64,000 nt of DNA, taken from a virus. Of this stretch, positions 2,311 to 59,935 are shown piece after piece. The notes beneath the pieces are model-generated. The model ran no database searches, was not told the origin of the DNA, and was given only the letters and a program-made list of their open reading frames with translations. Location: IMG/VR virus record IMGVR_UViG_3300025133_006890, positions 20,035 to 84,034 of that record; one strand, given 5' to 3'. A program made the translations under genes and the position numbers. Each line of letters opens with the position of its first letter. Positions within the stretch are counted from its first letter, which is position 1.

Positions 2311-3178
2311 TAGAAAACCAGTAGAAGGCCCCTGGGGCGGCGGCAATAAGTTTATTAAAGCTTATTGCAATGCCCTACGCAAAGCAGGCCATGAGGTATA
2401 TCATAGTTTGGTTCCAAACCTAGATGTAATCCACCTTCAGGATCCACGACTAGACCAACTTGGCATTTCAATGAATGATGTCTTTCATTATAAAAAATAT
2501 TATCCAAATGTGAGAATAGTTCACAGAGTGAATGAGTGTGACGCCAGAAAAGGTACACAGGGCATGGACAAACAACTTCAACTGTGTAGCGCATTCACCG
2601 ATATAACTGTGTTTGTTTCAGACTGGATTGCTGATTATTTTCAGAAAAGCTGGTCGTGCGACAAGCGGACGGTTATAAAGAACGGCGTTGATTTAGATGT
2701 ATTCCGTCCAAATGAAAAATATCATAATGGCAAAGTTAACATTGTTGCCCATCATTGGTCAAACAATTTTTTGAAAGGCTTTGATATTTATAATAAGCTT
2801 GATGATTGGATTTGGGAGAATAGAGGTGAGTACACATTTACATACATTGGTCGCGACCAAGGCACATTCTGCAACACTAGAGTTATTAAACCAATTCACG
2901 GTACGGTACTTGGAGATGAATTGGGAAAATATGATGTATATGTGTCTGCAAGTAGATTCGATCCTGGCCCAAATCATATTTTAGAAGCTCTGGCTTGTAA
3001 ATTACCAACATATTCATTTATCGACGGTGGTGGCGCTTGTGAGTTTACTGGAAAAGACCACATTTATGATAGTTTTGACCAGTTGGCTGAGATTCTAAAA
3101 AAGAAGAAGTTTAACAAGAATAAATCCTCTTTAATATCTTGGGACGAGTGTGTTAAACAATATATGGACTTGATATGA
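2294..3178 (+). CDS. Glycosyltransferase, GT4-like
   Basis: GT-B-fold glycosyltransferase. The N-terminal segment GPWGGGNKF (residues 13-21) matches the glycine-rich first loop of this group. HRVNECDARKG and VIKNGVDLDVFRP follow the usual pattern at the junction between the two Rossmann domains, and YVSASRFDPGPNHILEALAC holds the late nucleotide-sugar loop. In that loop the first acid of the family's E-x7-E is replaced (D-P-G-P-N-H-I-L-E). It overlaps the methyltransferase upstream by 17 bases and the HAD fusion downstream by 4. Class is clear; substrate is unknown. Confidence 0.83.
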   Translation: MKICINRKPVEGPWGGGNKFIKAYCNALRKAGHEVYHSLVPNLDVIHLQDPRLDQLGISMNDVFHYKKYYPNVRIVHRVNECDARKGTQGMDKQLQLCSAFTDITVFVSDWIADYFQKSWSCDKRTVIKNGVDLDVFRPNEKYHNGKVNIVAHHWSNNFLKGFDIYNKLDDWIWENRGEYTFTYIGRDQGTFCNTRVIKPIHGTVLGDELGKYDVYVSASRFDPGPNHILEALACKLPTYSFIDGGGACEFTGKDHIYDSFDQLAEILKKKKFNKNKSSLISWDECVKQYMDLI

Positions 3179-4551
3179 TTGGATTGTTATGCTTTGATTT
3201 GGATGGGGTTCTGGTTGATGCTAGAGATATGCACTATGAGGCTTTGAATAGAGCCCTTGAATCGATAGATAAGTCGTATGTTATTAGTATGGAAGAGCAC
3301 CTGTCGACATACGATGGCCTACCAACAAGCAAGAAGTGCCAACTGTTAACACAATACAAGGGCTTACCCGAAGATGAGTACGAGTATGTTTGGCGCCGCA
3401 AACAACATGAGACTAGAAACCTTATATTAGAGATGGGATACGATAACCGTATGCGCCTTGTTTTGGAAAGGCTCAAAGACTTGGGATATAAAATTTGTGT
3501 TGCATCTAACTCTATTAGGGAGTCGCTTAAAATGATGCTCCTAAAAAAGGGTTTGTTAGAATATGTTGATTTTTATGTTTCTAACCAAGATGTTAAGAAT
3601 CCAAAGCCCAATCCTGAAATGTATTTTCAATGTATGATCAAGGCCGAAGTGAGCGCCAAAGAGACTTTGATTATTGAAGACTCTCATATCGGCCGCGCCG
3701 CAGCAATAAGCTCTGGTGCCCATTTGTGTGCGGTTGAAGACCCAGAAGCTGTGACATTTGATAGGATTAAGTCAGCAATAGAAGAGGTGAACAAGGTGGC
3801 AAAAATTAAGCCAAAGTGGCAAGGAAAAGATATGAATGTTCTCATTCCAATGGCCGGCGCCGGAACTAGGTTTGTTCAAGCTGGATACACATTTCCAAAG
3901 CCACTAATTGAAGTCGCCGGAAAGCCCATGATTCAATTGGTTGTTGAAAATCTCAATTTGGATGCTAAGCATATTTTCATCGTGCAGAAAAGTCATTATG
4001 AAAAGTATAATCTCAAATATCTTCTTAATTTGATTGCCCCAAACTGTGAGATTGTGCAAGTAGATGGAGTTACAGAAGGCGCCGCCTGTACGACATTGTT
4101 GGCAAAAGAATATATCGATAACGACAAGCAATTGGTCATTGCAAACTCTGACCAATTTGTAGAGTGGGACAGCAATGAGTTTATGTACTCAATGGTCGGC
4201 GACAACATTGACGGCGGCATCCTAACATTCAAGGCGACCCACCCAAAGTGGAGCTTTGCAAGACTTAATGAAGACGGCTATGTTGCCGAGGTCGCAGAGA
4301 AGAAACCCATCTCAGACACCGCTACGGTGGGCATTTATTTTTATGATAAGGGCTCTGATTATGTGAAGTATGCCGAGCAAATGATTGAAAAAAACGTTCG
4401 GACAAACAACGAGTTTTATGTTTGTCCTGTATTTAACGAAGCCATTGGCGACGGAAAGAAGATTAAAATCTTCAACATAGAGAAGATGTGGGGCATTGGT
4501 GATCCGGAAGGTTTGCGAAGGTTCGTAGAAAATTATAATGGAGATATATAA
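3175..4551 (+). CDS. HAD phosphatase / sugar nucleotidyltransferase fusion
   Basis: Two-domain enzyme of 458 aa. Residues 1-205 form a beta-phosphoglucomutase-like HAD domain: motif I FDLDGVLVDA, a motif II serine in VASNSIRES, and the acidic motif IIEDSHIGRAAA. Residues 222-458 begin with MNVLIPMAGAGTRF and FPKPLIEVAGKPMI, the nucleotide-binding loop of sugar-1-phosphate nucleotidyltransferases, followed by the NSDQF metal-site region. The fusion suggests that one protein handles both a phosphosugar (mutase or phosphatase step) and its activation to an NDP-sugar. ATG 3838 inside the gene would allow separate expression of the second domain. It sits beside a cupin, a kinase and a second NTase/HAD protein. 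The sugar is unknown. Confidence 0.85.
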   Translation: MIGLLCFDLDGVLVDARDMHYEALNRALESIDKSYVISMEEHLSTYDGLPTSKKCQLLTQYKGLPEDEYEYVWRRKQHETRNLILEMGYDNRMRLVLERLKDLGYKICVASNSIRESLKMMLLKKGLLEYVDFYVSNQDVKNPKPNPEMYFQCMIKAEVSAKETLIIEDSHIGRAAAISSGAHLCAVEDPEAVTFDRIKSAIEEVNKVAKIKPKWQGKDMNVLIPMAGAGTRFVQAGYTFPKPLIEVAGKPMIQLVVENLNLDAKHIFIVQKSHYEKYNLKYLLNLIAPNCEIVQVDGVTEGAACTTLLAKEYIDNDKQLVIANSDQFVEWDSNEFMYSMVGDNIDGGILTFKATHPKWSFARLNEDGYVAEVAEKKPISDTATVGIYFYDKGSDYVKYAEQMIEKNVRTNNEFYVCPVFNEAIGDGKKIKIFNIEKMWGIGDPEGLRRFVENYNGDI

Positions 4552-4919
4552 TGAAAGTAGTTAATAAGCCGTGGGGCAGAGAAATTTGGATTGAGCTGAA
4601 CGATAAGTATTGTCTTAAGAAGCTTTATATCAACGCCGGTTATAGGACATCATATCAATTTCACAAAGAGAAACGTGAGACCGTTTATGTCCTAGATGGA
4701 GAAGCTGTTGTTTTTCTAGAAAACAACGCAGGCGAAATCAAACGCCATGAGTTGGCTACTGGAGATTACTTTAGCGTCCCGCCGAAGATAAAGCATCGCA
4801 TTGTCGCAACGACAAATCTAACTTTGATGGAAGCTTCAACGCCCGAAGTCGACGATGTGGTCCGAATCGAGGATGATTCAAACAGGACTAATGGAAGAAT
4901 CGCCAGCGAACATGAGTAA
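4551..4919 (+). CDS. Cupin, phosphomannose-isomerase type II-like
   Basis: Single-domain cupin of 122 aa resembling the C-terminal isomerase domain of bifunctional mannose-1-phosphate guanylyltransferase/mannose-6-phosphate isomerases. PWGREIWIE (residues 7-15), YQFHKEKRETVYVLDGEA (about 36-53) and GDYFSVPPKIKHRI (about 78-91) give the expected metal-binding His/Glu set on a beta-barrel. With gmd nearby, a role in supplying mannose phosphate for GDP-mannose is plausible; other sugar isomerases share the fold. The start overlaps the upstream stop by one base. Confidence 0.8.
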   Translation: MKVVNKPWGREIWIELNDKYCLKKLYINAGYRTSYQFHKEKRETVYVLDGEAVVFLENNAGEIKRHELATGDYFSVPPKIKHRIVATTNLTLMEASTPEVDDVVRIEDDSNRTNGRIASEHE

Positions 4920-4925
4920 CGAGTT

Positions 4926-5756
4926 TTGGAATCTTTTTGTTTCAAAGGGAATTCAGGATGTAAGATTGAAGTCTTACAAGGGAAGGCTTCTGTTGTAGTT
5001 CGGAAGCATTCTTCCGGAGCAGATTATAATTCAAGGCTAGCCGTACAAGCAACCAAACAGGCGCGACTTTTATCCGCACTATCATCATCAGATTTTATAG
5101 CTCCAAAAGTATTGTCGATTGGAGAAGACTATTTTGACATGGATTTTTTCCATGGTAAGGATATGATTTCTCACTTTAGTTCTTGTGGTAAAGATTCTAT
5201 TGTTAATTTTTGTAAGATTATACTTGACTTTATTAATGTTGAAATTCAAAACTCTAGTTTAGAGTTATTTCATAAGTGCGCGTTTTTAGACAAGTTTTAT
5301 AAGCTCAAGCCCGCTCTAGAGTCTGTCGATGCAGCGCGTATCGAGAGCTATTTCAATAACTTACCAACGATCATGATCCCACACGGCATGTGTCATGGAG
5401 ATTTAACCTTATCAAACATGCTTGTCAACAAATTAGAAGATCAAATTTGTTTAATTGATTTTCTTGACACTTTCTATGAAACTCCACTGCAAGATGTTGT
5501 AAAGTTAAGGCAGGATACAAAATACATGTGGTCTATGTTATTCTATAATCACGAGCACGACTCCACCAGATACAAAATTGTCATGGCATATATCGATGAA
5601 CAACTAGAGAAACATATCTCAGACCAAAAATGGTATCAAACATATTATCGACCCTTCCAAATGATGAACTTTTTAAGAATAGTGCCATATTCATCTGGAA
5701 AGAAGAGGGATTTTGTTATTAGACAAATAGGAACCATGGTGAACGAATGGACTTAA
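4926..5756 (+). CDS. Aminoglycoside/choline-kinase-like phosphotransferase, TTG start
   Basis: Small-molecule kinase of the APH/choline kinase superfamily. The catalytic loop is HGDLTLSNML near residue 158 and the metal-binding aspartate is in CLIDFLDTFYE near 180. In capsule clusters such kinases phosphorylate sugars, polyols or amino alcohols before activation. The family-like N-terminal segment NSGCKIEVL begins only eight codons after the TTG at 4926, and no ATG or GTG is available upstream in this frame after the preceding stop, so the TTG is the best start. Its ribosome site is poor. An ATG at 4912 opens another frame for only about 28 codons. The substrate is unknown. Confidence 0.75.
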   Translation: MESFCFKGNSGCKIEVLQGKASVVVRKHSSGADYNSRLAVQATKQARLLSALSSSDFIAPKVLSIGEDYFDMDFFHGKDMISHFSSCGKDSIVNFCKIILDFINVEIQNSSLELFHKCAFLDKFYKLKPALESVDAARIESYFNNLPTIMIPHGMCHGDLTLSNMLVNKLEDQICLIDFLDTFYETPLQDVVKLRQDTKYMWSMLFYNHEHDSTRYKIVMAYIDEQLEKHISDQKWYQTYYRPFQMMNFLRIVPYSSGKKRDFVIRQIGTMVNEWT

Positions 5757-6802
5757 TAATTGCTGCTGCTGGCAAATCGTCAAGATTTCCCAATACTCGA
5801 CCGAAATGGCTGTTGACACACCCTCGCGGAGATTTAATGGTCACTGCGTCTATCAGGGGCCTTCCTGTGAATGAGTTCGAAATGATTCATTTGGTTGTCT
5901 TAAAAGAGCACTTGGAAAAGTATCAATGTGAGGGCGGGATAAAAGATGCCTTTGATATGATGGGTATCCGCGACAAACTAAACTTGGTCGTGTTGGATGA
6001 GCCAACTAGAAATCAGCCGGAAACGGTTAGCGCCTGCCTTCAAAAGACTCAACGTCAAACCTCTTTCTTTATCAAAGATGCGGATAACTATTTTGAATCT
6101 AATTTTATTGAACCAAATTCAATTTCGACATATAATCTCATGAACATGAATAGCGTTAATGCGAGTAACAAGAGTTACGTTGAAAAGAACGAGAAAGGGC
6201 TAGTCACTAATATCATTGAAAAGCAGGTTATTTCGTCAGAATTCTGTTGCGGAGGTTATTCATTCGCTTCCCCAGAGCAGTTTCTAAAAAACTTTAATGA
6301 GATTAAGCATCACGACAATCTTTATTTATCTCATGTCATATTTCAAATGATTTTGAATGGAGTTTCGTTTACCACAATGCCGGTTCGTGAATACTCTGAC
6401 TGGGGAACGCAGACAGATTGGAATGAATACAAGTCTAAGTTTGGAACTTATTTTATAGATATTGATGGGTTGCTGGTAGAGAACTCTGGACGATTCTTTG
6501 AACCATTTTGGGGAACGACCGAAGCTATTCAAGAGAATGTTGATCTCATTAATAAACTTTATTATTCTGGTAAATCTCAAATTATATTAACCACATCGAG
6601 AAGTCATAACCATTCTATTCCCACTGTTAATCAGTTGAAGAGAATTGGCATGCAATACCATCAGATTGTATATGATTTGATGCACTGCAAGAGAACCATC
6701 ATAAACGACTATGCTGCGACCAACGCTTATCCCTCATGCGCCGCAATCAACATTAATAGAGATAGTCGCACAGAATTGACAACTAAACTAGCTGGAGTTT
6801 GA
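5747..6802 (+). CDS. Nucleotidyltransferase / HAD-like fusion
   Basis: 351-aa protein whose domains run in the opposite order to the fusion at 3175. Residues 1-230 start with LIIAAAGKSSRFP and KPxWLL-like TRPKWLL, the loop of sugar nucleotidyltransferases, with FIKDADNYF as the metal-site strand. Residues 233-351 hold a HAD-like domain: motif I FIDIDGLLVEN near 236, a motif II threonine in ILTTSRSH, and IINDYAATNAYPSCAAIN, a segment I associate with capsule-locus HAD proteins. It overlaps the kinase gene by 10 bases. Together with that kinase it could build a phosphorylated, nucleotide-activated substituent. This is inference. Confidence 0.75.
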   Translation: MDLIIAAAGKSSRFPNTRPKWLLTHPRGDLMVTASIRGLPVNEFEMIHLVVLKEHLEKYQCEGGIKDAFDMMGIRDKLNLVVLDEPTRNQPETVSACLQKTQRQTSFFIKDADNYFESNFIEPNSISTYNLMNMNSVNASNKSYVEKNEKGLVTNIIEKQVISSEFCCGGYSFASPEQFLKNFNEIKHHDNLYLSHVIFQMILNGVSFTTMPVREYSDWGTQTDWNEYKSKFGTYFIDIDGLLVENSGRFFEPFWGTTEAIQENVDLINKLYYSGKSQIILTTSRSHNHSIPTVNQLKRIGMQYHQIVYDLMHCKRTIINDYAATNAYPSCAAININRDSRTELTTKLAGV

Positions 6803-6803
6803 A

Positions 6804-7589
6804 ATGAAAATTGGAGTAGCAATATCTGTATACAATAAAGGACACTTTGTGGCCACCAACATGCACATATTTGATGAGCTGTGGGTAGATAAACCCTATG
6901 TTTCGGTTTGTTGTAACGATTTTGGAACGTTTAAAAAGCTCAAGGGATTGAACCTTGACTCTCTTGTCTTGGGAAGAGATTTACCATATGCTACCAAGCC
7001 ACAATTAAGGTTGAGACAACATGATTGTATAAGAACATCTATTCTAGCAGCCGCCCCACATTGTGACTACATCATTCATTGGCACGCCGATGCATTTGCC
7101 CTAGATCAAAATGAAGTAGAGAAACTCATCGGACACATGGAGAAAAATCACTGTCACTTTGCCGCAAGGGGTTTGTGGAAGTCTTATCGAGATGTCAAAA
7201 TTCCAGATGGGGATTTAGATGATCACTTTTTCATTATTAAATCAGATCAGGCGCTATTAGTATTCGGAGAAGGCAGAGAGGCTCCATATAACAACTATGT
7301 TGAGTCGCTATCTGCTGCCGGATTGTGTTCGGAAGGTATATTATCAAACGTGGTTCAACGTGTTATACCACAAGATAGAATCCATATCTATTCGGATATG
7401 GGAGAGTGCGAAGTTCTACCAAGCAACCGAGTAGATAGAAGATATTCTGATGGAATTGCTCACAGGACTTTGCCACCTGTAAACTTTGACAAAGAAAGAA
7501 AGTTTTTACATTGTGATGATTTGCAGGAACTTGTTAAAATATTTAAAGAACAGAACATCAACACTGATTATATCGTAGGAGAATTATAA
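6804..7589 (+). CDS. GT-A-like glycosyltransferase, unassigned family
   Basis: Protein of 261 aa that begins MKIGVAISVYNK, like the first strand of GT-A glycosyltransferases. An IIHWHADAFALD segment near residue 92 may be the metal-binding DxD region (here A-D-A). A later DLDDHFFIIKSD segment is acidic and could also serve. I cannot place it in a known family by sight. It lies two bases after the NTase/HAD fusion and shares its stop/start base with the next methyltransferase. A transferase role in the glycan pathway is the most likely reading. Confidence 0.55.
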   Translation: MKIGVAISVYNKGHFVATNMHIFDELWVDKPYVSVCCNDFGTFKKLKGLNLDSLVLGRDLPYATKPQLRLRQHDCIRTSILAAAPHCDYIIHWHADAFALDQNEVEKLIGHMEKNHCHFAARGLWKSYRDVKIPDGDLDDHFFIIKSDQALLVFGEGREAPYNNYVESLSAAGLCSEGILSNVVQRVIPQDRIHIYSDMGECEVLPSNRVDRRYSDGIAHRTLPPVNFDKERKFLHCDDLQELVKIFKEQNINTDYIVGEL

Positions 7590-8278
7590 TGTCATTTAAT
7601 AGAGGATTAGCGCAGAGCATGTTTGGCGTCGGTACAGAAAAGGAATTGCGCGATAAGTTGTATGGGCGATGGAGTGATTTAACACCAGCTGAAAATGGTT
7701 GTATTTTAAGAAGATTAAGCGAATTTGATGAACCAAAATATTGCGAGATTGGTGTTTATTTCGGGGGCAATTTCTTTAATGTCAGCGAGTTCCTGAAATC
7801 ATCAAAAGAGAATTATTATATGTATGGGATTGATCTCTTTGAGAATCTTATTACAGAAACACAAGAGTCTCAAACTCACGACTTGTTCAACAAATGGAAC
7901 ATGTTAAATACTTCCGTTCACGGGGAACTAACAGAGGCTTTACGCAACTTTGGTTCTGAGAAGTTCTCCCTGCTGAAGGGTTATTCCCACAGAATAGCGG
8001 CACACCTTCCAGAAAAGTGTGACGTATTCTTCATTGACGGAAACCACACATACGAGCAGACAATGTTGGACGCACTGGCGTGTTCCAAGCGGGCCTCCGG
8101 TGGAAGTTACTTGATTTTCCACAATGCTTCTGATAACATTAAACCTGATCCGGAATATGTTGAAGAGGATGGAGGGCCACATCGTGTCGTCGAAGATCTC
8201 TGCAAGGATGATAAATTTGAATTCGTTGAGCGCATCGAGCGTTGCGCGGTTGTGAGGGTGAGGGATGAACAACATTGA
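7589..8278 (+). CDS. Class I SAM-dependent methyltransferase
   Basis: 229-aa methyltransferase of the Methyltransf_24 type. Motif I is CEIGVYFGGNF near residues 52-62, followed by YGIDLFENL. The segment CDVFFIDGNHTYEQT near residue 143 matches the IDG(D/N)H(S/T)Y pattern also seen in the gene at 1552, so the two are paralogues in family though not close copies. The SGGSYLIFHNAS stretch is the usual strand where an acidic residue is often found; here it is HN. It overlaps the following GT2 gene by 14 bases. Likely methylates a sugar; acceptor unknown. Confidence 0.8.
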   Translation: MSFNRGLAQSMFGVGTEKELRDKLYGRWSDLTPAENGCILRRLSEFDEPKYCEIGVYFGGNFFNVSEFLKSSKENYYMYGIDLFENLITETQESQTHDLFNKWNMLNTSVHGELTEALRNFGSEKFSLLKGYSHRIAAHLPEKCDVFFIDGNHTYEQTMLDALACSKRASGGSYLIFHNASDNIKPDPEYVEEDGGPHRVVEDLCKDDKFEFVERIERCAVVRVRDEQH

Positions 8279-9062: not shown

Positions 9063-9678
9063 TACGTTTAATAATCTTTTCTTTATTAAAAACTTGGTCA
9101 TGAGCTTCAAAGAGTGTAATGTCTACGACAATTACGAGTGGATTATTACAGATCACGGCTCTGAAGACTACACAAAAGATTTTTTAGATGAACTGTCTTT
9201 AAGCGATTCGGTAACTTTAATGACTAAACCAGAGTCTGCTAAACGAGAAAGGCTGACAGACTTTAAAGGAGACTATCTCATTGAACTTACAGAGTTTTGT
9301 CAATTTATAAGAAAAGGTGATTGGGTATCTGAATACATTAGGCTGCAACAATCTGCCAAAGAGAGCATTATTCCTGTTTATTATGGTGAGCCACTGCTAG
9401 TTGTTGGCAATTCAAACGATTGGGGAAATTATAGCACAGACTATTATGTTCACAAAAACAACGAAGTGTTTGGTTCCACAATGATATTTTTCAAATATCC
9501 GTTTGTTGTTTGTTTCCCCTCTACGTGGTCGATGCGATTAGGGATGATGATGCGACATTATTCATGTGATCAAACCGCTGTGCCGATTTTTGAAGAAGGC
9601 GAGTTACAGAGCAAATTTGCTGATTTGGAAAGGCCGGTCAGTTCTGACGAGATGATATTGATAAAGGGTATTAGATGA
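9028..9678 (+). CDS. Glycosyltransferase family 2-like
   Basis: 216-aa protein starting ITYHVNTFNNLFFIKNLV, with YEWIITDHGSEDYTKDFL near residue 37, which is the GT2 pattern with DHGSED in place of the usual DDGSTD. A clear later DxD was not seen, so donor binding may differ or the enzyme may be divergent. The start could be ATG 9028 or ATG 9031; both lie inside the upstream gene. Function in the glycan pathway is inferred from fold and position. Confidence 0.68.
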   Translation: MMTNPLITYHVNTFNNLFFIKNLVMSFKECNVYDNYEWIITDHGSEDYTKDFLDELSLSDSVTLMTKPESAKRERLTDFKGDYLIELTEFCQFIRKGDWVSEYIRLQQSAKESIIPVYYGEPLLVVGNSNDWGNYSTDYYVHKNNEVFGSTMIFFKYPFVVCFPSTWSMRLGMMMRHYSCDQTAVPIFEEGELQSKFADLERPVSSDEMILIKGIR

Positions 9679-24785: not shown

Positions 24786-26579
24786 ATGACTACAAAAAAG
24801 CCACCTGTCAAATACATTAACAGAGACTTTGAATCTATCAAGCAAGACTTGGTTAATTATGCCAAAGTTTATTATCCGGAGACTTTTAGAGACTTCAATG
24901 AAGCCAGCTTTGGAGCTTTGATGTTGGATATGGTTGCCTATGTAGGAGACATGTTATCGTTTTATGTAGACTATCAAACCAACGAGTCATATTTAGATTC
25001 CGCAATTGAAACAAAGAACGTTGTCAAGCAGGCAAAGCAAATGGGTTTTAAATACCCAGGAACCCCAGCCTCAACTGGAGTTGTGACTTTATATGCAACA
25101 ATTCAGGCTACTTCGGCAGGGTCAGGCCCAGACACGACCGCAATTCCAATTCTCATGAGGGGTACGACATTTACTTCCAATTCTGGAGCTACATTCACTT
25201 TGCTTGAAGATGTTGACTTCTCGAATACAAAAGTGGAGCAGGTTGTTGCAACAGTCAATTCAGATGGTCAGCCAACCTCATACGCCCTCAGAGCCTCTGG
25301 TCAGGTTGTTTCCGGCCGAGTTGCGAGCGAGATTGTTGATGTCGGTCCATATGAGAAATTTAAGAAGATTGCTCTAGCTGGTGAAAATATAACAGAAATT
25401 CTATCTGTTCATGATTTTGAGGGCCACGAATACTTTGAAGTTGATTATCTGTCACAAAATTTGATTTTTCAATCAATTAGAAATCGCGTGTCGGCCGACA
25501 AGGAGCTGGTTCCTTATCTGGTTCGAGAGATATTAACCCCTCGCAGGTTTGTTGTCGAATTTAATGAGGACTTTGAAACTTTTTTGCAGTTTGGATATGG
25601 CTCGGAAGAGACACTGAAGGATAATAGTTTCCCAGATCCTGCGACATCTGTACTCCAAATACATGGAAAGAAATATTATAAAGACGATTCATTTGATCCA
25701 AATCTTATGATGAAGACTGATAAGTTTGGTATTGTCCCTCCACAAGGAAGGCTAACTGTTCAATATAGAGCCAATACTGCCGCAGACGTAAATATTTCTG
25801 CTGGTGCTCTCAGTAGAATTACAAGTCCGATTGTGTCTTTTGGAACAAACACTCCACCAGCAGCCACAAGTAACGCGGTGATCGCTTCTTTAGAAGTGGA
25901 AAATGAAAAGCCCATTCTCGGACAAACAAGCATCATAACAAACGAAGAAATCAGAACAAGAGCTATTGATAATTTTGCTTCACAGAATAGAGCAGTAACA
26001 AAACAGGACTATATCAACATTATCTATAGAATGCCTTCTCGTTTTGGAGTCATTAAGAGGGCGAACATCGTACAAGACAAGGATTCTTTTAAGAGGAATC
26101 TAAACTTATATGTTGTATCTGAGAATGTTGATGGAAATCTGACCGAGGCACCGTCGTCTTTGAAGAATAATTTAAAGAAATGGGTTAGCCAATATAAGAT
26201 GATCAACGATACTATTGATATATTAGATGGCAGAATCGCAAACATTGGGGTTGAGTTTGAGGTGGTAGGGGTTTTAGAGAAGGGAACAACAGAAGTTCTT
26301 AGCAAATCTATCGAAGCTGTCAAAAACAAACTTTCAGACGTTCTCTTTTTTGGCCAGCCGTTTTACATTCAGGACATTTTCAAAATATTGAATGATTTGC
26401 CAGAAGTCATTGACACGAAGTATGTAAAAATTGTTAACAAGCGGGGAACTAGATATAGTACCACAAATTATAACGTGGAAGCCAGCATCACAAAAGATAG
26501 TAAGTTTATTGTAGTGCCAGAAGATGTGATTTTGGAATTGAGATTTCCCGATGAAGACATCGTTGGAGTTGTTAGTTAA
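24786..26579 (+). CDS. Baseplate wedge protein, gp6/J-like
   Basis: 597 aa. The N-terminus has YINRDFESIKQDLVNYA, FNEASFGALMLDMVAYVGDM and SFYVDYQTNESYLDSA, which are the signature of T4 gp6-like proteins. The middle has the beta-rich baseplate J core (FGYGSEETLKDNSF, PPQGRLTVQYR) and the C-terminal region has RAVTKQDYINIIYRMPSRFG. gp6 forms the ring that holds the wedges together. A short 15-base gap separates it from gp25. Confidence 0.93.
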   Translation: MTTKKPPVKYINRDFESIKQDLVNYAKVYYPETFRDFNEASFGALMLDMVAYVGDMLSFYVDYQTNESYLDSAIETKNVVKQAKQMGFKYPGTPASTGVVTLYATIQATSAGSGPDTTAIPILMRGTTFTSNSGATFTLLEDVDFSNTKVEQVVATVNSDGQPTSYALRASGQVVSGRVASEIVDVGPYEKFKKIALAGENITEILSVHDFEGHEYFEVDYLSQNLIFQSIRNRVSADKELVPYLVREILTPRRFVVEFNEDFETFLQFGYGSEETLKDNSFPDPATSVLQIHGKKYYKDDSFDPNLMMKTDKFGIVPPQGRLTVQYRANTAADVNISAGALSRITSPIVSFGTNTPPAATSNAVIASLEVENEKPILGQTSIITNEEIRTRAIDNFASQNRAVTKQDYINIIYRMPSRFGVIKRANIVQDKDSFKRNLNLYVVSENVDGNLTEAPSSLKNNLKKWVSQYKMINDTIDILDGRIANIGVEFEVVGVLEKGTTEVLSKSIEAVKNKLSDVLFFGQPFYIQDIFKILNDLPEVIDTKYVKIVNKRGTRYSTTNYNVEASITKDSKFIVVPEDVILELRFPDEDIVGVVS

Positions 26580-47988: not shown

Positions 47989-48504
47989 ATGATTTTAGGA
48001 TTAGACGTAAGCACCAATTGCACGGGAATTACCGTGCTCGACGACAAGGGAAAAGTAATTTATTGTGAAGCAATCCGGACGCACAAAGAAAAGAGTTATA
48101 TGAAAAAGATGGACATGCTTGACGATGTATTTGTTAAGTTGTTCCCAAAGGTTCATATCGACCACATTTTTATTGAAGAGCCGGTTCAGCGTTTTGCTGG
48201 CGGTAAATCATCAGCGAACACTATTGCAAAGCTTAATCAGTTTGCCGGAGCAGTTAGGTGGCTAACCTACGACATATATGGAATCGAGCCCGAATTCATT
48301 CCAGTTCGCTCAGCACGAAAGCTTTGCGGCATTAAACCAAAGAGAGGCGAGGACGCGAAGAAGAAGGTGCTTGAGTGGGTTGAGAAGACCGAGAAGACAT
48401 TCAATTATGAGTTGACGCCCAAAGGCAACCCGAAACCCGGGACGTTTGATAGAGCGGATAGTTTAATTGTTGCAAGGGCTGGTTTTTTGAAACTTAAAGA
48501 CTAA
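47989..48504 (+). CDS. RuvC-like Holliday junction resolvase
   Basis: 171 aa, RNase H fold. LGLDVSTNCTGI near residue 3 carries the first catalytic Asp (as in RuvC GxDxS). HIFIEEPVQRF near residue 57 carries the second acid. The C-terminal FDRADSLIVARAG supplies the last D-x-x-D pair. It would cut branched DNA before packaging and during recombination, working with the Mre11-Rad50 homologue at 50960. Length matches RuvC (about 170). A diverged copy of its last 30 codons lies at 49062-49154. Confidence 0.88.
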   Translation: MILGLDVSTNCTGITVLDDKGKVIYCEAIRTHKEKSYMKKMDMLDDVFVKLFPKVHIDHIFIEEPVQRFAGGKSSANTIAKLNQFAGAVRWLTYDIYGIEPEFIPVRSARKLCGIKPKRGEDAKKKVLEWVEKTEKTFNYELTPKGNPKPGTFDRADSLIVARAGFLKLKD

Positions 48505-49879: not shown

Positions 49880-49891
49880 TGATCCATGAAT
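49859..49891. repeat. 10-bp perfect inverted repeat over promoter/start
   Basis: ATTCATGGAT (49859-49868) and ATCCATGAAT (49882-49891) are exact reverse complements with a 13-base spacer. The repeat is centred in the -10 element, the left arm lies in the promoter spacer, and the right arm covers the ATG of the primase. It fits an operator for a DNA-binding regulator. About one such repeat is expected by chance in 64 kb, so it is the location that makes it notable. Confidence 0.6.
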
Positions 49892-50827
49892 AAGCTCACT
49901 TTTATACAAAGCTTGCTCGGGCAGTGTCTCGTCGTAGGTGACGAACATATCTACACTTGTCCGTTTTGCAAACACAATAAAAAGAAATTATCAATTAACT
50001 TTTCCAAAGGCAAATGGAAATGCTGGATTTGCGACAAGGCTGGCAGAAGCATCAAGACGCTGGTTCGTCAGGTTGGTAGCGCTCATCATATTAGAGAATG
50101 GGCGCGCATAACAGATTCGGTTGATTTGTCTGAAATCGGAGATATTAATTTAGAAAATCTCTTCAAAAAAGAGGAAAAAGTAAAACAGATCGTTACATTA
50201 CCAGACGGATTCGTTTCGCTTGCAACGAGGAAGAAAGTTCGTGGCTCTAGAAAAGCCATGGCATATCTCAAGAAGCGCCGAATTTCATTTTCAGACTTGT
50301 TAACGTGGAAGGTCGGAATTTGCACAAAAGGCACGCACGCTGGCAGAATCATTGTTCCATCGTTTGATCTCAATGGAGATTTAAATTATTTTATTGGGCG
50401 AGCTTATGATGGCGCGTGGCCAAGGTATATGAATGCCGGCCAACCAAAAAAAGAAATTGTGTTTAATGAATTGAGCTTGGATTTCTCCAAAGAAATCACA
50501 ATAGTTGAGGGAGTGTTTGATGCTATCGTCGCAGGCGAGAACAGTGTTCCCCTTCTGGGATCAACTCTGAGAGAGATGGATTTATTGTTCAAGAGATTGG
50601 TTGAAAATAATACGACAGTCTATATGGCTTTGGACCACGACGCAAGAAAGAAGCAGGACAAAATCGTTGAGCTTTTGTTGCACTATGGCTTGACAGTGTA
50701 TGTTATCAATACGTTTGGCTTTCCAGATGTGGGTGAGATGACAAAGGAACAATTTGTGAAAAGAAAACAAGAGGCTACGCTGTCAGATTCGTGGAGCCTT
50801 TTCGCATCTGCAATGGCAAATGGGTGA
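49886..50827 (+). CDS. DNA primase, T4 gp61/DnaG-like
   Basis: 313 aa. The N-terminal zinc site is CPFC (residues about 24-27) with CWIC near 49-52, followed by the Toprim core: EITIVEGVFDAIVAG near 207, then ALDHDARKKQ near 249, which provide the metal-binding Glu and D-x-D. It makes RNA primers for the lagging strand. The start at 49886 gives a zinc site at the normal distance from the N-terminus. No Shine-Dalgarno sequence lies ahead, in line with the leaderless message suggested by the promoter. Confidence 0.88.
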   Translation: MNKLTFIQSLLGQCLVVGDEHIYTCPFCKHNKKKLSINFSKGKWKCWICDKAGRSIKTLVRQVGSAHHIREWARITDSVDLSEIGDINLENLFKKEEKVKQIVTLPDGFVSLATRKKVRGSRKAMAYLKKRRISFSDLLTWKVGICTKGTHAGRIIVPSFDLNGDLNYFIGRAYDGAWPRYMNAGQPKKEIVFNELSLDFSKEITIVEGVFDAIVAGENSVPLLGSTLREMDLLFKRLVENNTTVYMALDHDARKKQDKIVELLLHYGLTVYVINTFGFPDVGEMTKEQFVKRKQEATLSDSWSLFASAMANG

Positions 50828-50959: not shown

Positions 50960-53900
50960 ATGAAAATACTACAGATAAGCGATATTCATGTGAGAAATTA
51001 TAAGTATCATCATGAATACAAGACAGTTTTTACAGAACTCTACGAGAAAGCGAAGCAATTAAAGCCAGACATCATTGTGAATACTGGTGACACGTTCCAC
51101 ACGAAGTCAAAGATTTCTCCAGAAGCGTATAAGATGGTTTCAGATCTGTTCAGGAATCTGGCAGACATTGCGCCATTGCATGTTATTTTGGGCAATCACG
51201 ACACAAATGTGAAGAATACCAACAGGCTCGACTCTGTTAGCCCAATCATCGAGGCTTTGAATCATGATAATATTCATTATCATAAGAATTCTGATGAGAC
51301 ATTCCTTAATGGGTTTGCTTTCAATACTCTGTCCATATTGGACCCCGAGAGCTGGACGGCTCCAACCAATCCAGAAATGGTTAATATTGCTCTGTATCAT
51401 GGCGCAGTCCAAGGAGCAAAGACAGACGCCGGCTGGACAATGGAACACGGAGAGATCAGCCTCGACTTCCTTCAAAAGTTCGATTATGCATTGCTTGGGG
51501 ATATTCACAAAACCAATCAAGCTTTAGATGAGAAGGGCAAGGCGAGATATCCCGGCTCCTTGATTTGCCAGAACTTTGGAGAAACAAACGATAAAGGTTT
51601 TCTGTTTTGGGACATTAAAGACAAGGACGCCTTTACATGCAAACACATTAAACTACACAACCCAAAACCATTTGTTTCCATTACGCTAACAAAAGACGGC
51701 AGGCTGCCATACAAGCGAACACTTCCAAAGGGCGCTCGTCTAAGACTTATCTCAGAAACTAAGTTGTCGTTACACGTTATACGTCGGGCCATGGAGGCAG
51801 CAAAATATAAATATAAGCCAGAGATCGTATCATATTTGAATCGCTCCAATTCGGAGAGGATTAATGTAGAAAGCGAAGTAAGTTCAATTCTTAATAAGAA
51901 TTTGCGGGAAGTAAGCACTCAAGAACAGCTCATTGAAAAGTATCTTCAAGATTATAGTGTGACCTCCGAATCTTTGAAGGAAGTATTTACTCTAAATAAA
52001 AAGTACAATTTGTTGGCCAAGCAGGGCGAAGAAACCCAAAGAAATATTTCGTGGAAGATCAAGAGTTTTAAATGGGATAACCTATTCAATTATGGTAGTG
52101 GCAATTATATTAATTTTGAAGGTCTGTCGGGAGTTGTTGGCATCTTTGGCAAGAACTATAGTGGCAAAAGTTCTGTTATTAATGCTCTTTTGTATACTAT
52201 GTTTAACTCAACTGCTAAAAACATTAGAAAGAACTTCAATGTCATCAACGAACATCGCCAAATTGGCTCTGGAGAAATTGAAATCGAGGTTGGTGCTAAA
52301 GTATATAAGATTGTTCGTAAATCTGAGAAGTATGTCAAAAAGCTCAGAGGGAAAGTGACAGACGAGGCAAAAACAGAAGTAGATTTTACGTCTTATGACA
52401 CAATTTCAGGGCAAACAAATGTTTTAAACTCCACAGACCGAGCAGCCACTGATAGAGAGATCCGTAAAGTATTTGGAACAATTGAGGATTTCCTCTTGAC
52501 TTCCGTAATGCCACAACTTGGGGCTCTTAAGTTCATCAACGAGGGCTCAACAAAGAGAAAGGAGATCCTCGCTAAGTTCTTGGACTTAGAGTTGTTCGAA
52601 CAGAAGTTTAAGTTGGCGCACGAGAACGCTGCCGAAACAAAAGCTCTGCTTAGGAAGATGGGCGATCATGATTATGATTCAAACATTAAAGCTTCCATGT
52701 TAGAACTAGCAAAGAATGAAATTAAAACGGCTGGCAAGAAGTCGGCGTGCGAGGCTCTCCAAGAATTGATAACAACTCTGAGAGGAGAAATAGAAGAGAA
52801 CCAGAGAAAGATTGATTCAATCCCAACAGATCCAATTAACATTCACAGCATTGTGTCATCAAGAGATTCCTTTCTCCGAGACGTTATAACAAAGAAAGAG
52901 ATGAACGATTTGCTGCTAACACAGATAGACAACAGCAAAACCTTTGTAGCTAACGCAGACACTTTTCTTCAGAAGTTCAACATTGATGAATACCGCTCTG
53001 TTGTCGAGGAAGAGGCTTCTAAGACTCTTGAGTGGGCAGCCCTAGACAATCACATCACAGACAAAAAGAAGACCTTTAAAATCTATCAGAACAAGAAGAA
53101 GATGATTGAGGGAATTCCCTGTGGAGATTCTTATTTGGCAACTTGTAAGTTTATCAAAGACGCCTATGAGTCTTCGAAAAAGATTGATGGTTTGGAAAAG
53201 AACATACGAGAACTTGAGCTTGAATTCAAAGCTCTGGACAAATACATTGATGACTTGAATATCACCGCAGCTAAGGATTATATTAAAAAGTATGATGATC
53301 TGGTTGATAAGAAGAGAGAACACGAATCTGACATTGTGAAGAAGAAACTACTGATCCAAAAGAGCATTAATGAAATCAACTTGCACGAATCAGAGATAGT
53401 GGATTTGCAGGAAAAAATTGAATATTATAATGAGAATAAAGATGCTATCGAAAACCACCACAAACTTGAAAGGCAAAAGAAAAAACTAGCCAAAGAAGTA
53501 GAGAACCAAGAAGATGAAATGAAAAAATGCTCTGAAGAAATTTTAGAGCTGTATAAGACTCACGGTTCTTTAGAGGAAAGAGTTAAGAATTCCAACGAAC
53601 AAAAGGAAGAAGTTGAGAGGTTGCGCCTGGAGCATTCTGCTGCGGATCTATTCATGCGATGTATGCACAGCAACGGTATCGCGTTTGATATCATTAAGAA
53701 GGCGCTGCCACACGTTAATGACGAGATTGCTAAAGTCTTGGCCAATATCGTTGACTTTAAGGTGTTTTTCGAAACGGACGGCAACAAGCTTGATATCTAC
53801 ATTCAACACCCGAAACATCAACCAAAGCCACTAGAAAATGGTTCGGGAGCAGAGAAAACCCTTGCAGCTATGGCAATTAGGATTGCAATTCTAAGTATTA

Positions 53901-54112
53901 GCAACATGCCAAAGTGCAATGTGTTGATTTTGGATGAGCCAGGGTCGGCTCTGGACGAGGATCATTTAGAGAGCTTTTCAAGAATTATTGAAATGTTGAA
54001 AGGATATTTTGACACTTGCATGATAATTACTCATGTAGGCGCTTTGAAAGATATTGTGGATCGAGAGATTTCAATTGAGAAGAAAAAAGGATTTGCATAC
54101 ATAAACGAGTGA
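50960..54112 (+). CDS. Mre11-Rad50 (SbcD-SbcC, gp47-gp46) fusion nuclease
   Basis: 1050 aa with both subunits of the recombination nuclease in one chain. Residues 1-345 are the Mre11/gp47 phosphoesterase: QISDIHVRN near 6, NTGDTFHTKS near 41, LGNHDTN near 77, ALYHGAVQ and LLGDIHKTNQ. Residues about 360-1050 are Rad50/gp46: Walker A FGKNYSGKSS near 396, a long coiled coil, a hook with CGDSYLATC near 720, coil again, the signature NGSGAEKTL near 958, Walker B NVLILDEPGSALDED near 990 and TCMIITHVG after it. It prepares DNA ends for strand exchange and may degrade host DNA. The hook spacing (C-x7-C) is wider than the usual C-x2-C. Confidence 0.92.
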   Translation: MKILQISDIHVRNYKYHHEYKTVFTELYEKAKQLKPDIIVNTGDTFHTKSKISPEAYKMVSDLFRNLADIAPLHVILGNHDTNVKNTNRLDSVSPIIEALNHDNIHYHKNSDETFLNGFAFNTLSILDPESWTAPTNPEMVNIALYHGAVQGAKTDAGWTMEHGEISLDFLQKFDYALLGDIHKTNQALDEKGKARYPGSLICQNFGETNDKGFLFWDIKDKDAFTCKHIKLHNPKPFVSITLTKDGRLPYKRTLPKGARLRLISETKLSLHVIRRAMEAAKYKYKPEIVSYLNRSNSERINVESEVSSILNKNLREVSTQEQLIEKYLQDYSVTSESLKEVFTLNKKYNLLAKQGEETQRNISWKIKSFKWDNLFNYGSGNYINFEGLSGVVGIFGKNYSGKSSVINALLYTMFNSTAKNIRKNFNVINEHRQIGSGEIEIEVGAKVYKIVRKSEKYVKKLRGKVTDEAKTEVDFTSYDTISGQTNVLNSTDRAATDREIRKVFGTIEDFLLTSVMPQLGALKFINEGSTKRKEILAKFLDLELFEQKFKLAHENAAETKALLRKMGDHDYDSNIKASMLELAKNEIKTAGKKSACEALQELITTLRGEIEENQRKIDSIPTDPINIHSIVSSRDSFLRDVITKKEMNDLLLTQIDNSKTFVANADTFLQKFNIDEYRSVVEEEASKTLEWAALDNHITDKKKTFKIYQNKKKMIEGIPCGDSYLATCKFIKDAYESSKKIDGLEKNIRELELEFKALDKYIDDLNITAAKDYIKKYDDLVDKKREHESDIVKKKLLIQKSINEINLHESEIVDLQEKIEYYNENKDAIENHHKLERQKKKLAKEVENQEDEMKKCSEEILELYKTHGSLEERVKNSNEQKEEVERLRLEHSAADLFMRCMHSNGIAFDIIKKALPHVNDEIAKVLANIVDFKVFFETDGNKLDIYIQHPKHQPKPLENGSGAEKTLAAMAIRIAILSISNMPKCNVLILDEPGSALDEDHLESFSRIIEMLKGYFDTCMIITHVGALKDIVDREISIEKKKGFAYINE

Positions 54113-55762: not shown

Positions 55763-56306
55763 CGTGATGGACATCATTAACGCCATTTCGTCAGCAATGC
55801 AGAATTCTTATGATGGAGCAGTTGATGACAAGGGCGAACCTGTTAAGATCGGACTGAATAGAGAAGTTGACAACGTTGTATTAGATTCCAGAAGTGGTAT
55901 CATGGACGGTTTTTGTATTCGGTTTGGCAGTGACAAGCTTATTGTTTCTTATCATGGAGAGGTTAGCATGAAGGATCTTCATCGCGATGGGCCAAAGAAG
56001 TTTGAGCGCGACATTGAAGATAAGTTTGCCGACATTGCTAAGTTCCTTAAGAAAGAATATAAGAAGCACGCCAAAGGAGCGCTCAAGCTAGTTTCACAGG
56101 GCGATTGTGAAGCGAAGATTCAAAGGTTATCAAATATTAGAAACTGGGTGACAGCCAGTAAAGTATATAAGATTGGTAATACAAATGAGCCAGTTGGCGA
56201 TCAGAGTGGAAACACGGGCCCAAGAACGGTTGATAAGGCAGTGGCGGATTTCCTGGCTCTATCGACAGACAAGCGACCAAAGAACGCAAAAATAAAAAAT
56301 GATTAA
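55737..56306 (+). CDS. Protein of unknown function before terminase
   Basis: 189 aa from ATG 55737, preceded by TGGAGG at 55722-55727 which supports this start rather than the GTG at 55719. The middle is beta-rich (DSRSGIMDGFCIRFGSDKLI) and then helical and basic (FLKKEYKKHAKGALK), and the end is polar. Position immediately before the large terminase suggests a possible small terminase subunit, but I see no helix-turn-helix to prove it. Confidence 0.6.
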   Translation: MSKEKKTNNVMDIINAISSAMQNSYDGAVDDKGEPVKIGLNREVDNVVLDSRSGIMDGFCIRFGSDKLIVSYHGEVSMKDLHRDGPKKFERDIEDKFADIAKFLKKEYKKHAKGALKLVSQGDCEAKIQRLSNIRNWVTASKVYKIGNTNEPVGDQSGNTGPRTVDKAVADFLALSTDKRPKNAKIKND

Positions 56307-57895
56307 TGGCAAGAAAACTAACCAAATCAGAAATCAAAAAAGAGATCCTTAAATGTGGTAAGGATCCTGTCTATTTTATTAACAATTATGTAAAAATTAT
56401 CCACCCGATGCGGGGCTTGATCCCTTTTAGTCTTTACCCCTTTCAAGAGGAAGTTGTTAAGGATTTCAAGAAGAATAGGTTTAATATCATTCTCAAGGCC
56501 CGACAGCTTGGTATCTCAACGACAATTTCCGGCTATATTGCTTGGCTTATCTTGTTCCACCGTGGCAAAAATGTCCTTGTCATGGCCACCAAGCTCGACA
56601 CAGCCGGCAATCTAGTTCGTAAAGTGAAACTGGCAATGAAGAGTCTGCCAAAGTGGCTTACGATATCAAAGATCAACATCGACAACAGAAACAACTTTAA
56701 ACTAGACAACCAATCACAAGTAAAGGCAATCTCAACAAGCAGTGACGCCGGCCGTTCAGAGGCGTTGTCGCTGATGGTTATCGATGAAGCTGCCTGGATT
56801 GAGAATATGGACAAGCTGTGGGCAGGATTGAAGCCCACACTAAGCACGGGCGGCGATTGCATAATTGCCTCAACGCCATACGGAGTAGGAAACGCTTTCC
56901 ATAAAATCTTCTCAGATTCGGAGAGACAGATAAACAACTTCAATTCAATTGTTTTACCGTGGGATGTTCACCCAGATCGAGATCAGGAATGGTACGATGA
57001 AGAATGTAGAACGATGTCGGATAGAGAAATTGCTCAAGAGCTTAATTGCAATTTCAATATGTCTGGCCAATCTGTTATTAATTCAGAAGATTTGTTGTGG
57101 ATAAAGGAAGCCATTAGAGAGCCCAAATATAGAACGGGATTCGATAGGAACTTATGGATTTGGGAATCTTATAAGCTTGGTGAGAAATATTTCCTTGTTG
57201 CAGATGTGGCAAGGGGTGATGGTGCAGACAACTCCGCCTTTGTTATCATCAATTCTCGAAACTTAGAGATCGTTGCTGAATATTATGGACAAGTTCCGTC
57301 TGATATGTTTGCTCCCCTAATCAATGAATCGGCGAGAGAATATGGATCATGCCTTGTTGTCATTGAAAACAACAAGGGCGAAGCCGTCATTAATAAGTTG
57401 CGAGATTTAAATTATCCTAACTTGTATTACTCTCGCAAGACTTCACACGAGTATGTTGAGCAGTATGCCGCAGAGGGTCAGAGTCAAGTAATCCCAGGAT
57501 TTTCAATGAGTCAAAAAACTAGACCATTTGTGATTTCAAAACTAGAAGAAGTCATTAGAAACAAGATGCTTAAGACTTATTCGCTAAGGCTTTACACAGA
57601 ACTTGAAACCTTTATTTGGAATCATGGTCGACCTGAAGCTATGCGAGGATATAATGATGATTTGACGATTGCCGTGGCGATTGCTAGTTGGGTTCACGAA
57701 ACGGCTTTAATTAGCAATCAATATGATTTAGAATATAAAATGGCACTTGCTTCGAGCGTTATGACATCCAAGACATCAATGGATACTAAAATCTCTGGCA
57801 TGACGGGATACAGAAAGAAAAATCCATATGGAAATTTACCAAAGAAAAAAGATAAAGATGCGAAGATCATTGGACTTCCATTCTTCCGGGGATAA
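56306..57895 (+). CDS. Large terminase subunit, gp17-like
   Basis: 529-aa DNA packaging motor. The N-terminal ATPase has an adenine-binding FSLYPFQEEVV segment near 37, a Walker A variant LKARQLGIST near 63-72 and Walker B LMVIDEAAWIEN near 155. The C-terminal nuclease has VADVARGDGADNSAF near 299 with its first Asp, CLVVIENNKGEAVI near 350 with the Glu, and NDDLTIAVAIA near 453 with the last Asp. Headful-type packaging is typical of this group. Slightly shorter than T4 gp17 (610 aa). Confidence 0.94.
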   Translation: MARKLTKSEIKKEILKCGKDPVYFINNYVKIIHPMRGLIPFSLYPFQEEVVKDFKKNRFNIILKARQLGISTTISGYIAWLILFHRGKNVLVMATKLDTAGNLVRKVKLAMKSLPKWLTISKINIDNRNNFKLDNQSQVKAISTSSDAGRSEALSLMVIDEAAWIENMDKLWAGLKPTLSTGGDCIIASTPYGVGNAFHKIFSDSERQINNFNSIVLPWDVHPDRDQEWYDEECRTMSDREIAQELNCNFNMSGQSVINSEDLLWIKEAIREPKYRTGFDRNLWIWESYKLGEKYFLVADVARGDGADNSAFVIINSRNLEIVAEYYGQVPSDMFAPLINESAREYGSCLVVIENNKGEAVINKLRDLNYPNLYYSRKTSHEYVEQYAAEGQSQVIPGFSMSQKTRPFVISKLEEVIRNKMLKTYSLRLYTELETFIWNHGRPEAMRGYNDDLTIAVAIASWVHETALISNQYDLEYKMALASSVMTSKTSMDTKISGMTGYRKKNPYGNLPKKKDKDAKIIGLPFFRG

Positions 57896-57904
57896 TTATA
57901 ATAC

Positions 57905-59935
57905 ATGAGAAACACCACAACATTCTATAAGAATCCTAACAACCCAAGATCAACTCTGTTTAAGAGGCTGACAAAGTTATTGTCAGGCCCGCTGGTTAAC
58001 TACCGCCAACAGCAAGTACACAGAGATAGGCGACATCGATTAGACAAATACGCTAAAAAGTTTAAGTCTGCTTCGGGACAGCAGTTCCGAAAGAAATCAT
58101 ATAACCCTTATGATAACTTGACCGCCAACAGAATGGTCAACCAGAATAGAGCTGAAAGATATTTGGATTTTGACCAGATGGAGTACGATCCAGTCCTTAG
58201 TTCTGCAATGGATATTTATGCCGACGAGATTACAACACACAACGAGTTCGGCGACTTGCTAACCATTGATTGTGCCAACGAAGAAATCAAAGCAATTCTC
58301 CATTCTCTATTCTATAAAGTATTAAACGTTGAATTCAACCTATACAACTGGGCAAGAACCATGATCAAATATGGTGACTTCTTTATGTATCTAGACATCG
58401 ACGATGATATGGGAGTCAAGTCGGCTATTGGCCTGCCAGCCCCCGAGATTGAGAGAATGGAGGGCGAAGACCCTTCCAATCCAAATTACGTCCAATTCCA
58501 GTGGAATAGCGCTGGTTTAACTCTTGAGAATTGGCAAATCGCACACTTTAGAATTCTAGGTAATGATAAATATTCTCCATATGGAGTCAGCGCTTTGGAC
58601 CCCGCACGCCGCGTGTGGAGGCAGTTGAGCTTATTAGAGGATGCGATGATGGCTTATCGTATCGTAAGGGCACCCGACCGTCGTGTGTTCTATATTGATG
58701 TGGGTGGCATTGCGGCCGAAGACATTGAAGAGTTCATGCAAAAAACGATTACCTCTATGAAACGGCATCAGGTTGTAGACCCCGACAAAGGACAGGTTGA
58801 TCTTAGATACAATCCCGCTTCCATCGAGGAGGACTATTTTATTCCAGTCCATGGCGGCATCAGCAACACCAAGATTGATACGCTTCAGGGCACAAGCTGG
58901 GCAGGCGACACTGACGACGTTCAATACCTTTTGAACAAGTTGTTTGCAGCAATTAAGATTCCAATGTCATATCTGATTCGTGGCGAAGGCGGCGACGAAG
59001 ACAAAACAACATTGGCCCAAAAGGATGTTAGGTTTGCTAGAACGATTCAAAGGTTGCAGAGGTCGTTGATTTCTGAGTTGGAAAAGATTTCAATTATCCA
59101 CCTGTATACGATTGGATTTCGCGGTGATGACTTAACTTCGTTTAAGTTAAAACTATACAACCCTTCTAAGATTGCACAACTACAAGAGATGGAACATCTT
59201 AGAACAAAGCTAGAGCTTGCACAGAGCGCGAAGGATTCATTCTTCAGTGGTCGTTGGATTGCCGAGAATATTCTTGATATAACAAAAGAAGATTTCCTTA
59301 GAAATCAAAGAGAGCGTTATTATGATGCGAAAGTCCAAGCTTCCATTGAAGCAGTTGCTGCTGTTACCGGAGAAGGTGCTGGTATGGGCGAGCTTGGTGC
59401 CATGGGAGGCGGCTTCGAAGAGGGTGAACTCGGTGATATCGGTGGAGAAATGGACCTTGGCGGAGAAGAGGAAGTTGATATGGGAGGCGGCGGCGAAGCT
59501 CCTGACGCCGGAGGCGGGTTTGAAGGCTTAATGGCAACTCCCGGCGAAGCTGGTCCCGCAGCTAAGCGAGATGATGACGCTAATGGGTGGGAATGGAAGA
59601 AAACCAGAAAGGTTGGCGCAGATGGAAAAATTCACACCATAACAGACAAGTCAAAAGGAAAGTGGTACAATCCCGTGACAACGGACAAGAGAGACATGGG
59701 AGCTAGAAAAAAGAATATGCTTTCTCAAGGCGGCTCTCGCCAGGGCGGAAGAAAGAAAACCCATCCAGGCTACCACGCCTTAACTAGTTTAAGCAAGGGT
59801 ACTATTTCAGAATCTAAAGCTACTTATAATAACATGGTAACGGAAAGAAAGTTAATTAATACGAACAACGAAGTTGAAAAGCTTTTAGATAGCCTGGAGA
59901 GCATAAATGATGACAATGCAGAAGAAAAAAATTAA
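57905..59935 (+). CDS. Portal vertex protein, gp20-like
   Basis: 676 aa. The N-terminal region SYNPYDNLTANRMVNQN, RAERYLDFDQMEYDPVLSSA and MDIYADEITTHNEFGD is diagnostic of T4-type portals. The crown region YLIRGEGGDEDKTTLAQKDV further on fits too. T4 gp20 is 524 aa; the excess lies in a C-terminal extension after residue 475 that is Gly/Glu rich (GAGMGELGAMGGGFEEGELG) and then basic and polar. That tail may be a flexible interior extension. A TAATTATAATAC spacer separates it from terminase. Confidence 0.94.
   Translation: MRNTTTFYKNPNNPRSTLFKRLTKLLSGPLVNYRQQQVHRDRRHRLDKYAKKFKSASGQQFRKKSYNPYDNLTANRMVNQNRAERYLDFDQMEYDPVLSSAMDIYADEITTHNEFGDLLTIDCANEEIKAILHSLFYKVLNVEFNLYNWARTMIKYGDFFMYLDIDDDMGVKSAIGLPAPEIERMEGEDPSNPNYVQFQWNSAGLTLENWQIAHFRILGNDKYSPYGVSALDPARRVWRQLSLLEDAMMAYRIVRAPDRRVFYIDVGGIAAEDIEEFMQKTITSMKRHQVVDPDKGQVDLRYNPASIEEDYFIPVHGGISNTKIDTLQGTSWAGDTDDVQYLLNKLFAAIKIPMSYLIRGEGGDEDKTTLAQKDVRFARTIQRLQRSLISELEKISIIHLYTIGFRGDDLTSFKLKLYNPSKIAQLQEMEHLRTKLELAQSAKDSFFSGRWIAENILDITKEDFLRNQRERYYDAKVQASIEAVAAVTGEGAGMGELGAMGGGFEEGELGDIGGEMDLGGEEEVDMGGGGEAPDAGGGFEGLMATPGEAGPAAKRDDDANGWEWKKTRKVGADGKIHTITDKSKGKWYNPVTTDKRDMGARKKNMLSQGGSRQGGRKKTHPGYHALTSLSKGTISESKATYNNMVTERKLINTNNEVEKLLDSLESINDDNAEEKN

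Follow-up and report, generated by a model that had tools for sequence, protein, structure and literature searches.

A single-chain Mre11-Rad50 gene in a tailed phage and its relatives among fused genes of aquatic viral contigs

The window analysed here is a 64,000-nucleotide stretch comprising bases 20035-84034 of an 84,034-base IMG/VR virus record. On its plus strand, positions 50960-54112 form one open reading frame that starts with ATG and encodes 1050 amino acids without an internal stop, so ordered that an Mre11/SbcD nuclease is followed in the same chain by a complete Rad50/SbcC ATPase. PHROG 100 (SbcD-like) matches residues 1-332 (4e-39) and PHROG 77 (SbcC-like) matches residues 268-1050 (5e-55), and Pfam places Metallophos at residues 1-100 and AAA_23 at residues 374-612. 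The first-pass annotation had described this frame as a fusion of Mre11 and Rad50, and the reading frame and the PHROG and Pfam matches bear out both its coordinates and its description of the gene. No further gene with a Metallophos or AAA_23 domain was found in the 84,034-bp record, which may itself be a fragment.

All parts of the fused gene lie on the plus strand. The Mre11-type metallophosphoesterase (nuclease) domain, recognised by Pfam, PHROG, its motifs and an AlphaFold2 model, covers residues 1-235 (50960-51664) and contains DxH (8/10), GD (43/44), GNHD (78-81), H147 and GDIH (180-183). It is followed by a predicted Mre11 capping domain (residues 236-296; 51665-51847; AlphaFold2 secondary structure E-E-H-E), a loop (residues 297-317; 51848-51910) whose pLDDT falls below 50 at 297-307, and a predicted Mre11 helix-loop-helix, the Rad50-binding element (residues 318-356; 51911-52027; helices 318-332 and 336-356), which is conserved in the family. 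The fusion linker, delimited by the model and the family alignment, consists of residues 357-363 (52028-52048) and includes a conserved R-N ahead of W365. The Rad50 N-terminal ATPase lobe (residues 364-543; 52049-52588), which carries the Walker A motif GKNYSGKSS (residues 397-405; 52148-52174), leads into the first coiled-coil arm (residues 544-716; 52589-53107), the apex, or hook, IPCGDSYLATCKFI (residues 719-732; 53114-53155), the second arm (residues 730-902; 53147-53665) and the C-terminal ATPase lobe (residues 903-1050; 53666-54109), the arms being assigned from the model and the lobes with the help of domain matches and motifs. The signature SGAEK (962-966), the Walker B motif LILDE (989-993), the H-loop His1025 and a D-loop are all present in the Rad50 half, in agreement with the earlier statement that both ATPase halves lie in the frame; motif conservation and the model together describe a bipartite ABC ATPase split by a coiled coil.

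The surroundings of the gene are those of a phage. A DnaG-type primase (49886-50827, plus strand; PHROG 47, 1.7e-36) lies immediately upstream, preceded by a RuvC-like Holliday junction resolvase (47989-48504, plus strand; PHROG 159, 1.7e-15), and the terminase large subunit (56306-57895) and the portal (57905-59935) follow downstream. A baseplate wedge protein (24786-26579) points to a contractile-tailed phage. Among 152 usable loci, a primase was located no more than 1.5 kb upstream of the fused gene in at least 44 and a RuvC-like gene anywhere in at least 57, counts that are lower bounds given that each was obtained with a single query, the primase of the window and the RuvC-like protein of a close relative, L002. 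At the other end of the window, positions 591-6799 contain a sugar-related run of genes (a nucleotide-sugar epimerase, a glycosyltransferase, a HAD-type hydrolase and a phosphoheptose isomerase-like gene), perhaps for modification of surface polysaccharides.

How are the two halves joined? AlphaFold2, run on a 56-row alignment, returned a model with a mean pLDDT of 84.5 in which nuclease, capping domain, helix-loop-helix and ATPase follow one another in that order; because the pTM is only 0.48, the model does not establish the packing of the domains. Its structural matches in the PDB are Mre11, Rad50, MR complexes and SMC proteins or heads. The predicted secondary structure accommodates both a capping domain and the helix-loop-helix, which is the Rad50-binding element of Mre11 (PMC3175470), and the docking of this element is likewise a prediction. 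Only about seven residues (357-363) separate its second helix from the first Rad50 strand. The first-pass annotation had placed a fixed linker at residues about 300-360; a short linker does exist, but most of that span is taken up by the predicted helix-loop-helix, so that residues 300-360 would mostly represent a conserved functional element and not a new spacer. In the Thermotoga MR complex, about 28 angstroms separate the C-terminus of Mre11 from the N-terminus of Rad50, a distance that nine to twelve extended residues would span (PMC3175470); the linker of the window protein, put at about seven residues from the secondary structure, comes close to this. Measured from the second helix of the helix-loop-helix up to the first Rad50 strand, the junction has a length of 37-38 residues in 128 of the 133 non-redundant family members. 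Across codons 340-375, the window and L002 differ at 4 first, 2 second and 14 third positions, and this preponderance of third-position changes is the mark of a translated sequence.

Two genes are the usual arrangement in phages, as the first-pass annotation had noted and as T4 gp47/gp46, Listeria phage A511 and cyanophages illustrate. The same annotation proposed a search for the fusion in related genomes, and it was found in at least 174 relatives, among them L002, which lies on a separate contig and is 72% identical over the whole protein. These relatives were drawn from two alignment-based scans of viral contigs, each supplying the best 80 loci of at least 576-577 confirmed relatives from about 600 candidate stretches, and from a third scan that used a more distant fused protein as the query and yielded 10 additional loci; reading frames were computed for all collected loci. 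Together with the window protein the set numbers 175, or 133 after removal of those at least 90% identical. Five loci fall outside the 174, namely L004, a lone Mre11-like gene (L090) and three reference loci: L007 and L008, both from phages known to have two genes, and L006 (Listeria phage LMTA-57), which gave no match to the query at the cut-off applied. Because full-length ranking in the first two scans favours fusions, a further scan was made as a correction with the nuclease half alone. Its best 80 loci comprised 61 complete fusions, 16 genes in which Mre11 runs into Rad50 until the contig ends, 3 loci that stop at a contig end too soon to be informative and no split pair. The possibility that relatives always carry two genes here is accordingly contradicted by this sample, in which all 77 informative loci are fused. 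The sample was still ranked by closeness to fused queries and shares several contigs with the earlier ones; what it shows, at the level of sequence, is that this branch is fused, and not how frequent split genes are elsewhere. These data suggest that the fused form is the rule in the sampled phage branch.

A separate branch consists of longer fusions of 1202-1257 amino acids (L172-L181 and L005), related to a protein of a 735-kb uncultured phage. A maximum-likelihood tree was built from 37 fused proteins together with 9 two-gene phage pairs, each concatenated; in it, a single branch (100/100) divides the fused from the split proteins. A single origin of the phage fusions is allowed by this tree and is not shown by it, since its branches are long and cellular and giant-virus sequences were left out; in the wider set of 2011, fused proteins were polyphyletic (PMC3175470). 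Several loci show additional reading frames. In L004 (LR756508.1, a 484-kb uncultured phage; 3944-8169), the gene is interrupted after GDIHK by a 305-aa reading frame with zinc-finger-like cysteines (4665-5582), and the remainder of the fused gene restarts at 5584, making the insert a candidate intein, intron or homing gene. At positions 4108-5078 of L049, a complete fused gene is followed by a reading frame that by eye resembles a GIY-YIG homing endonuclease; beyond this, the C-terminal end of Rad50 occurs a second time, as might be seen if a homing gene had inserted itself and caused a partial duplication. In L026, a second short frame matching the Rad50 end (9150-9359) overlaps the end of the fused frame. 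A search for Rfam introns in L004, L026, L049 and L006 gave no match at the gathering score.

The Mre11/Rad50 fusion has been known since 2011, and among uncultured aquatic phages it is widespread. In addition to the fusion of Mimivirus R555, Yoshida, Claverie and Ogata (2011) reported twelve others, among them examples from Bacillus phage 0305phi8-36, from bacterial genes carried on plasmids and from several eukaryotes (PMC3175470). From metagenomes they inferred that R555-like genes are abundant in aquatic viruses, where they stand beside phage primases (PMC3175470); an aquatic viral origin and phage primase neighbours are shared by the gene studied here. As in R555, known to us from its published description, Mre11 precedes Rad50 in a single frame, the junction is a helix-loop-helix plus a short linker, and Asp occupies the position of PfMre11 His206, a replacement reported for the Mre11 part of R555 (PMC3175470). 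Unlike R555, which has 1351 aa, the window protein is phage-encoded and has 1050 aa, with a C-x7-C apex. In BFVD, the viral structures nearest to it belong to proteins of similar length from giant viruses (Tupanvirus, Harvfovirus, Yasminevirus and Catovirus), with Tenacibaculum phage proteins next. The DNA repair proteins of Tenacibaculum phages pT24 and PTm1 (1310 and 1318 aa) match in structure over most of the length, which is consistent with a fusion, at 15% identity to the window protein. We regard the latter as a member of a large phage fusion family that resembles Mimivirus R555, the giant-virus likeness coming through structure matches to relatives of R555. An annotated phage of a named host also has the fusion: in Microcystis phage Mel-JY01, WWT39521.1 ('AAA domain containing protein') is a full-length single-frame fusion, 29% identical over the whole length, with a DNA primase-like gene upstream as in the window. 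It differs in belonging to another branch of the fused family and in its hook, DPKCKHC against PCGDSYLATC. T4 gp47/gp46 and other two-gene phage pairs share the domains, the gene order (gp47 before gp46) and the character of a recombination/replication nuclease, but consist of two genes, carry GHxH in 8 of the 9 tested and have a canonical CxxC hook in most cases. In the open-access literature, we found no published biochemistry on phage members of the fused family.

Two features set the window protein apart from the canonical pattern. Across the 133 non-redundant fusions, DxH, GD, GNHD, the motif IV histidine His147, Walker A, the signature, Walker B and the H-loop are near-invariant. The earlier claim that all phosphoesterase motifs are present holds for DxH, GD, GNHD, His147 and the last histidine of motif V; it does not hold for motif V as a whole, where GDIH stands in place of GHxH and Asp181 occupies the position of PfMre11 His206. 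Asp181 and His183 are invariant in all 133 fused members, whereas eight of nine homologues from two-gene phages carry His in place of Asp181 and the ninth, that of Vibrio phage D254, carries Asp. Given that R555 and Vibrio D254 share the Asp, GDIH is taken as a variant within the superfamily. The missing motif V histidine nonetheless weakens a claim of canonical activity, and the nuclease activity may differ, because Asp181 replaces a metal-ligand His kept in most two-gene homologues. The second feature is the apex, which is not a CxxC zinc hook but C-x7-C, with cysteines C721 and C729. Classified by pattern, the apices of the 133 members comprise 74 of the type DPxCxxC, 44 of the type PCG...C (the window protein included), 8 of the type CPxCG and 7 others. 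The zinc hook is common, and not obligatory, in the Mre11/Rad50 family.

We consider it highly probable that the product is a true single-chain Mre11-Rad50 nuclease/ATPase, made by a tailed phage of myovirus-like type and acting as a 2:2 homodimer in end resection of the gp46/47 kind. The single frame and conserved junction indicate that nuclease, capping domain, helix-loop-helix, short linker and Rad50 head would be translated as one chain. Two such chains would then pair through Mre11-Mre11 contacts and ATP-dependent engagement of the Rad50 heads, an expectation that follows from the need of the ATP site for Walker A and signature from opposite heads. The dimer would resect or cleave DNA ends, feeding recombination-dependent phage replication and repair as T4 gp46/47 does (PMC3175470); family membership and the primase and RuvC neighbours make this end-resection function in recombination, replication and repair the most likely role. 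The first-pass annotation saw a novelty in a 1:1 stoichiometry forced by the fusion. The canonical MR complex is already M2R2, that is, 1:1 (PMC10418313), and the fusion therefore imposes no new stoichiometry. Its effect is mainly to couple expression and assembly, leaving the basic machine unchanged.

Might the single frame be an artefact of assembly or sequencing, in which a lost stop codon or a frame error joined two adjacent genes? Listeria phage LMTA-57 (L006; 2995-6024) shows that such cases deserve attention, as it has an apparent 1009-aa fusion in a stretch shorter by one base than in A511 and in most of the phages closest to it. Of these closest phages, which are 91-98% identical to it, nearly all give a match broken into two or three pieces, in most cases across a stretch with one more base; for A511 the annotation lists two separate genes. 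Either an error of sequencing in the public record or a strain-specific change may account for the LMTA-57 fusion, and we set it aside as an independent fusion on account of this length difference from close two-gene phages. The case teaches that a fusion in a single genome is not to be trusted, and the fusion in the window rests on more than one: L002, relatives from other samples and the annotated isolate Mel-JY01 are all fused, and the length and sequence of the junction are conserved in the family. Independent contigs rule out an assembly artefact at this gene, leaving that explanation a negligible chance. A related idea, that the fused frame yields two products, either because translation also starts inside it, where Rad50 begins, or because a protease cuts the chain, which would give the usual four-chain complex, appears very improbable. 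Proteolytic cleavage of the fused chain is compatible with the sequence, but the linker sequence is conserved throughout the fused family, and codons 278 to 414 contain no in-frame ATG, only a few GTG/TTG codons (334, 339, 351 and 352) without an evident upstream ribosome-binding site. We rejected a separate Rad50 made from an internal start on these grounds.

Other alternatives accept a real single-chain MR machine and concern what it does. Instead of resecting ends for phage replication, it might have as its main job to break down host DNA, to cut hairpins or palindromes, or to act in counter-defence. The T4 record describes gp46/gp47 in terms of both recombination and host-DNA degradation, and E. 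coli SbcCD cleaves hairpins (PMC3175470), but the genes near the fusion, for a primase and a RuvC-like resolvase, speak for replication and recombination, and the degradative and replicative roles are not mutually exclusive; we judge such a main job unlikely, with some claim to attention. It is more doubtful still that the fused phage family forms a mechanistically distinct MR class, in which Asp181 at the second-metal site and non-CxxC apices, combined with obligate in-chain docking, would make nuclease chemistry and end tethering unlike those of gp46/47 and SbcCD.

The contigs examined here carry phage genes and support the 2011 inference that the R555-like fusions of aquatic metagenomes belong to phages. 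To that inference, our analysis adds full-length reading frames, counts, a near-constant junction, the invariance of Asp181 in the sampled phages and a varied apex. A natural single-chain MR protein, in which linkage of nuclease and ATPase is guaranteed, should be convenient for work on structure and mechanism, and two features of the family deserve experimental attention: Asp181, which does not vary, and the apex, which does.
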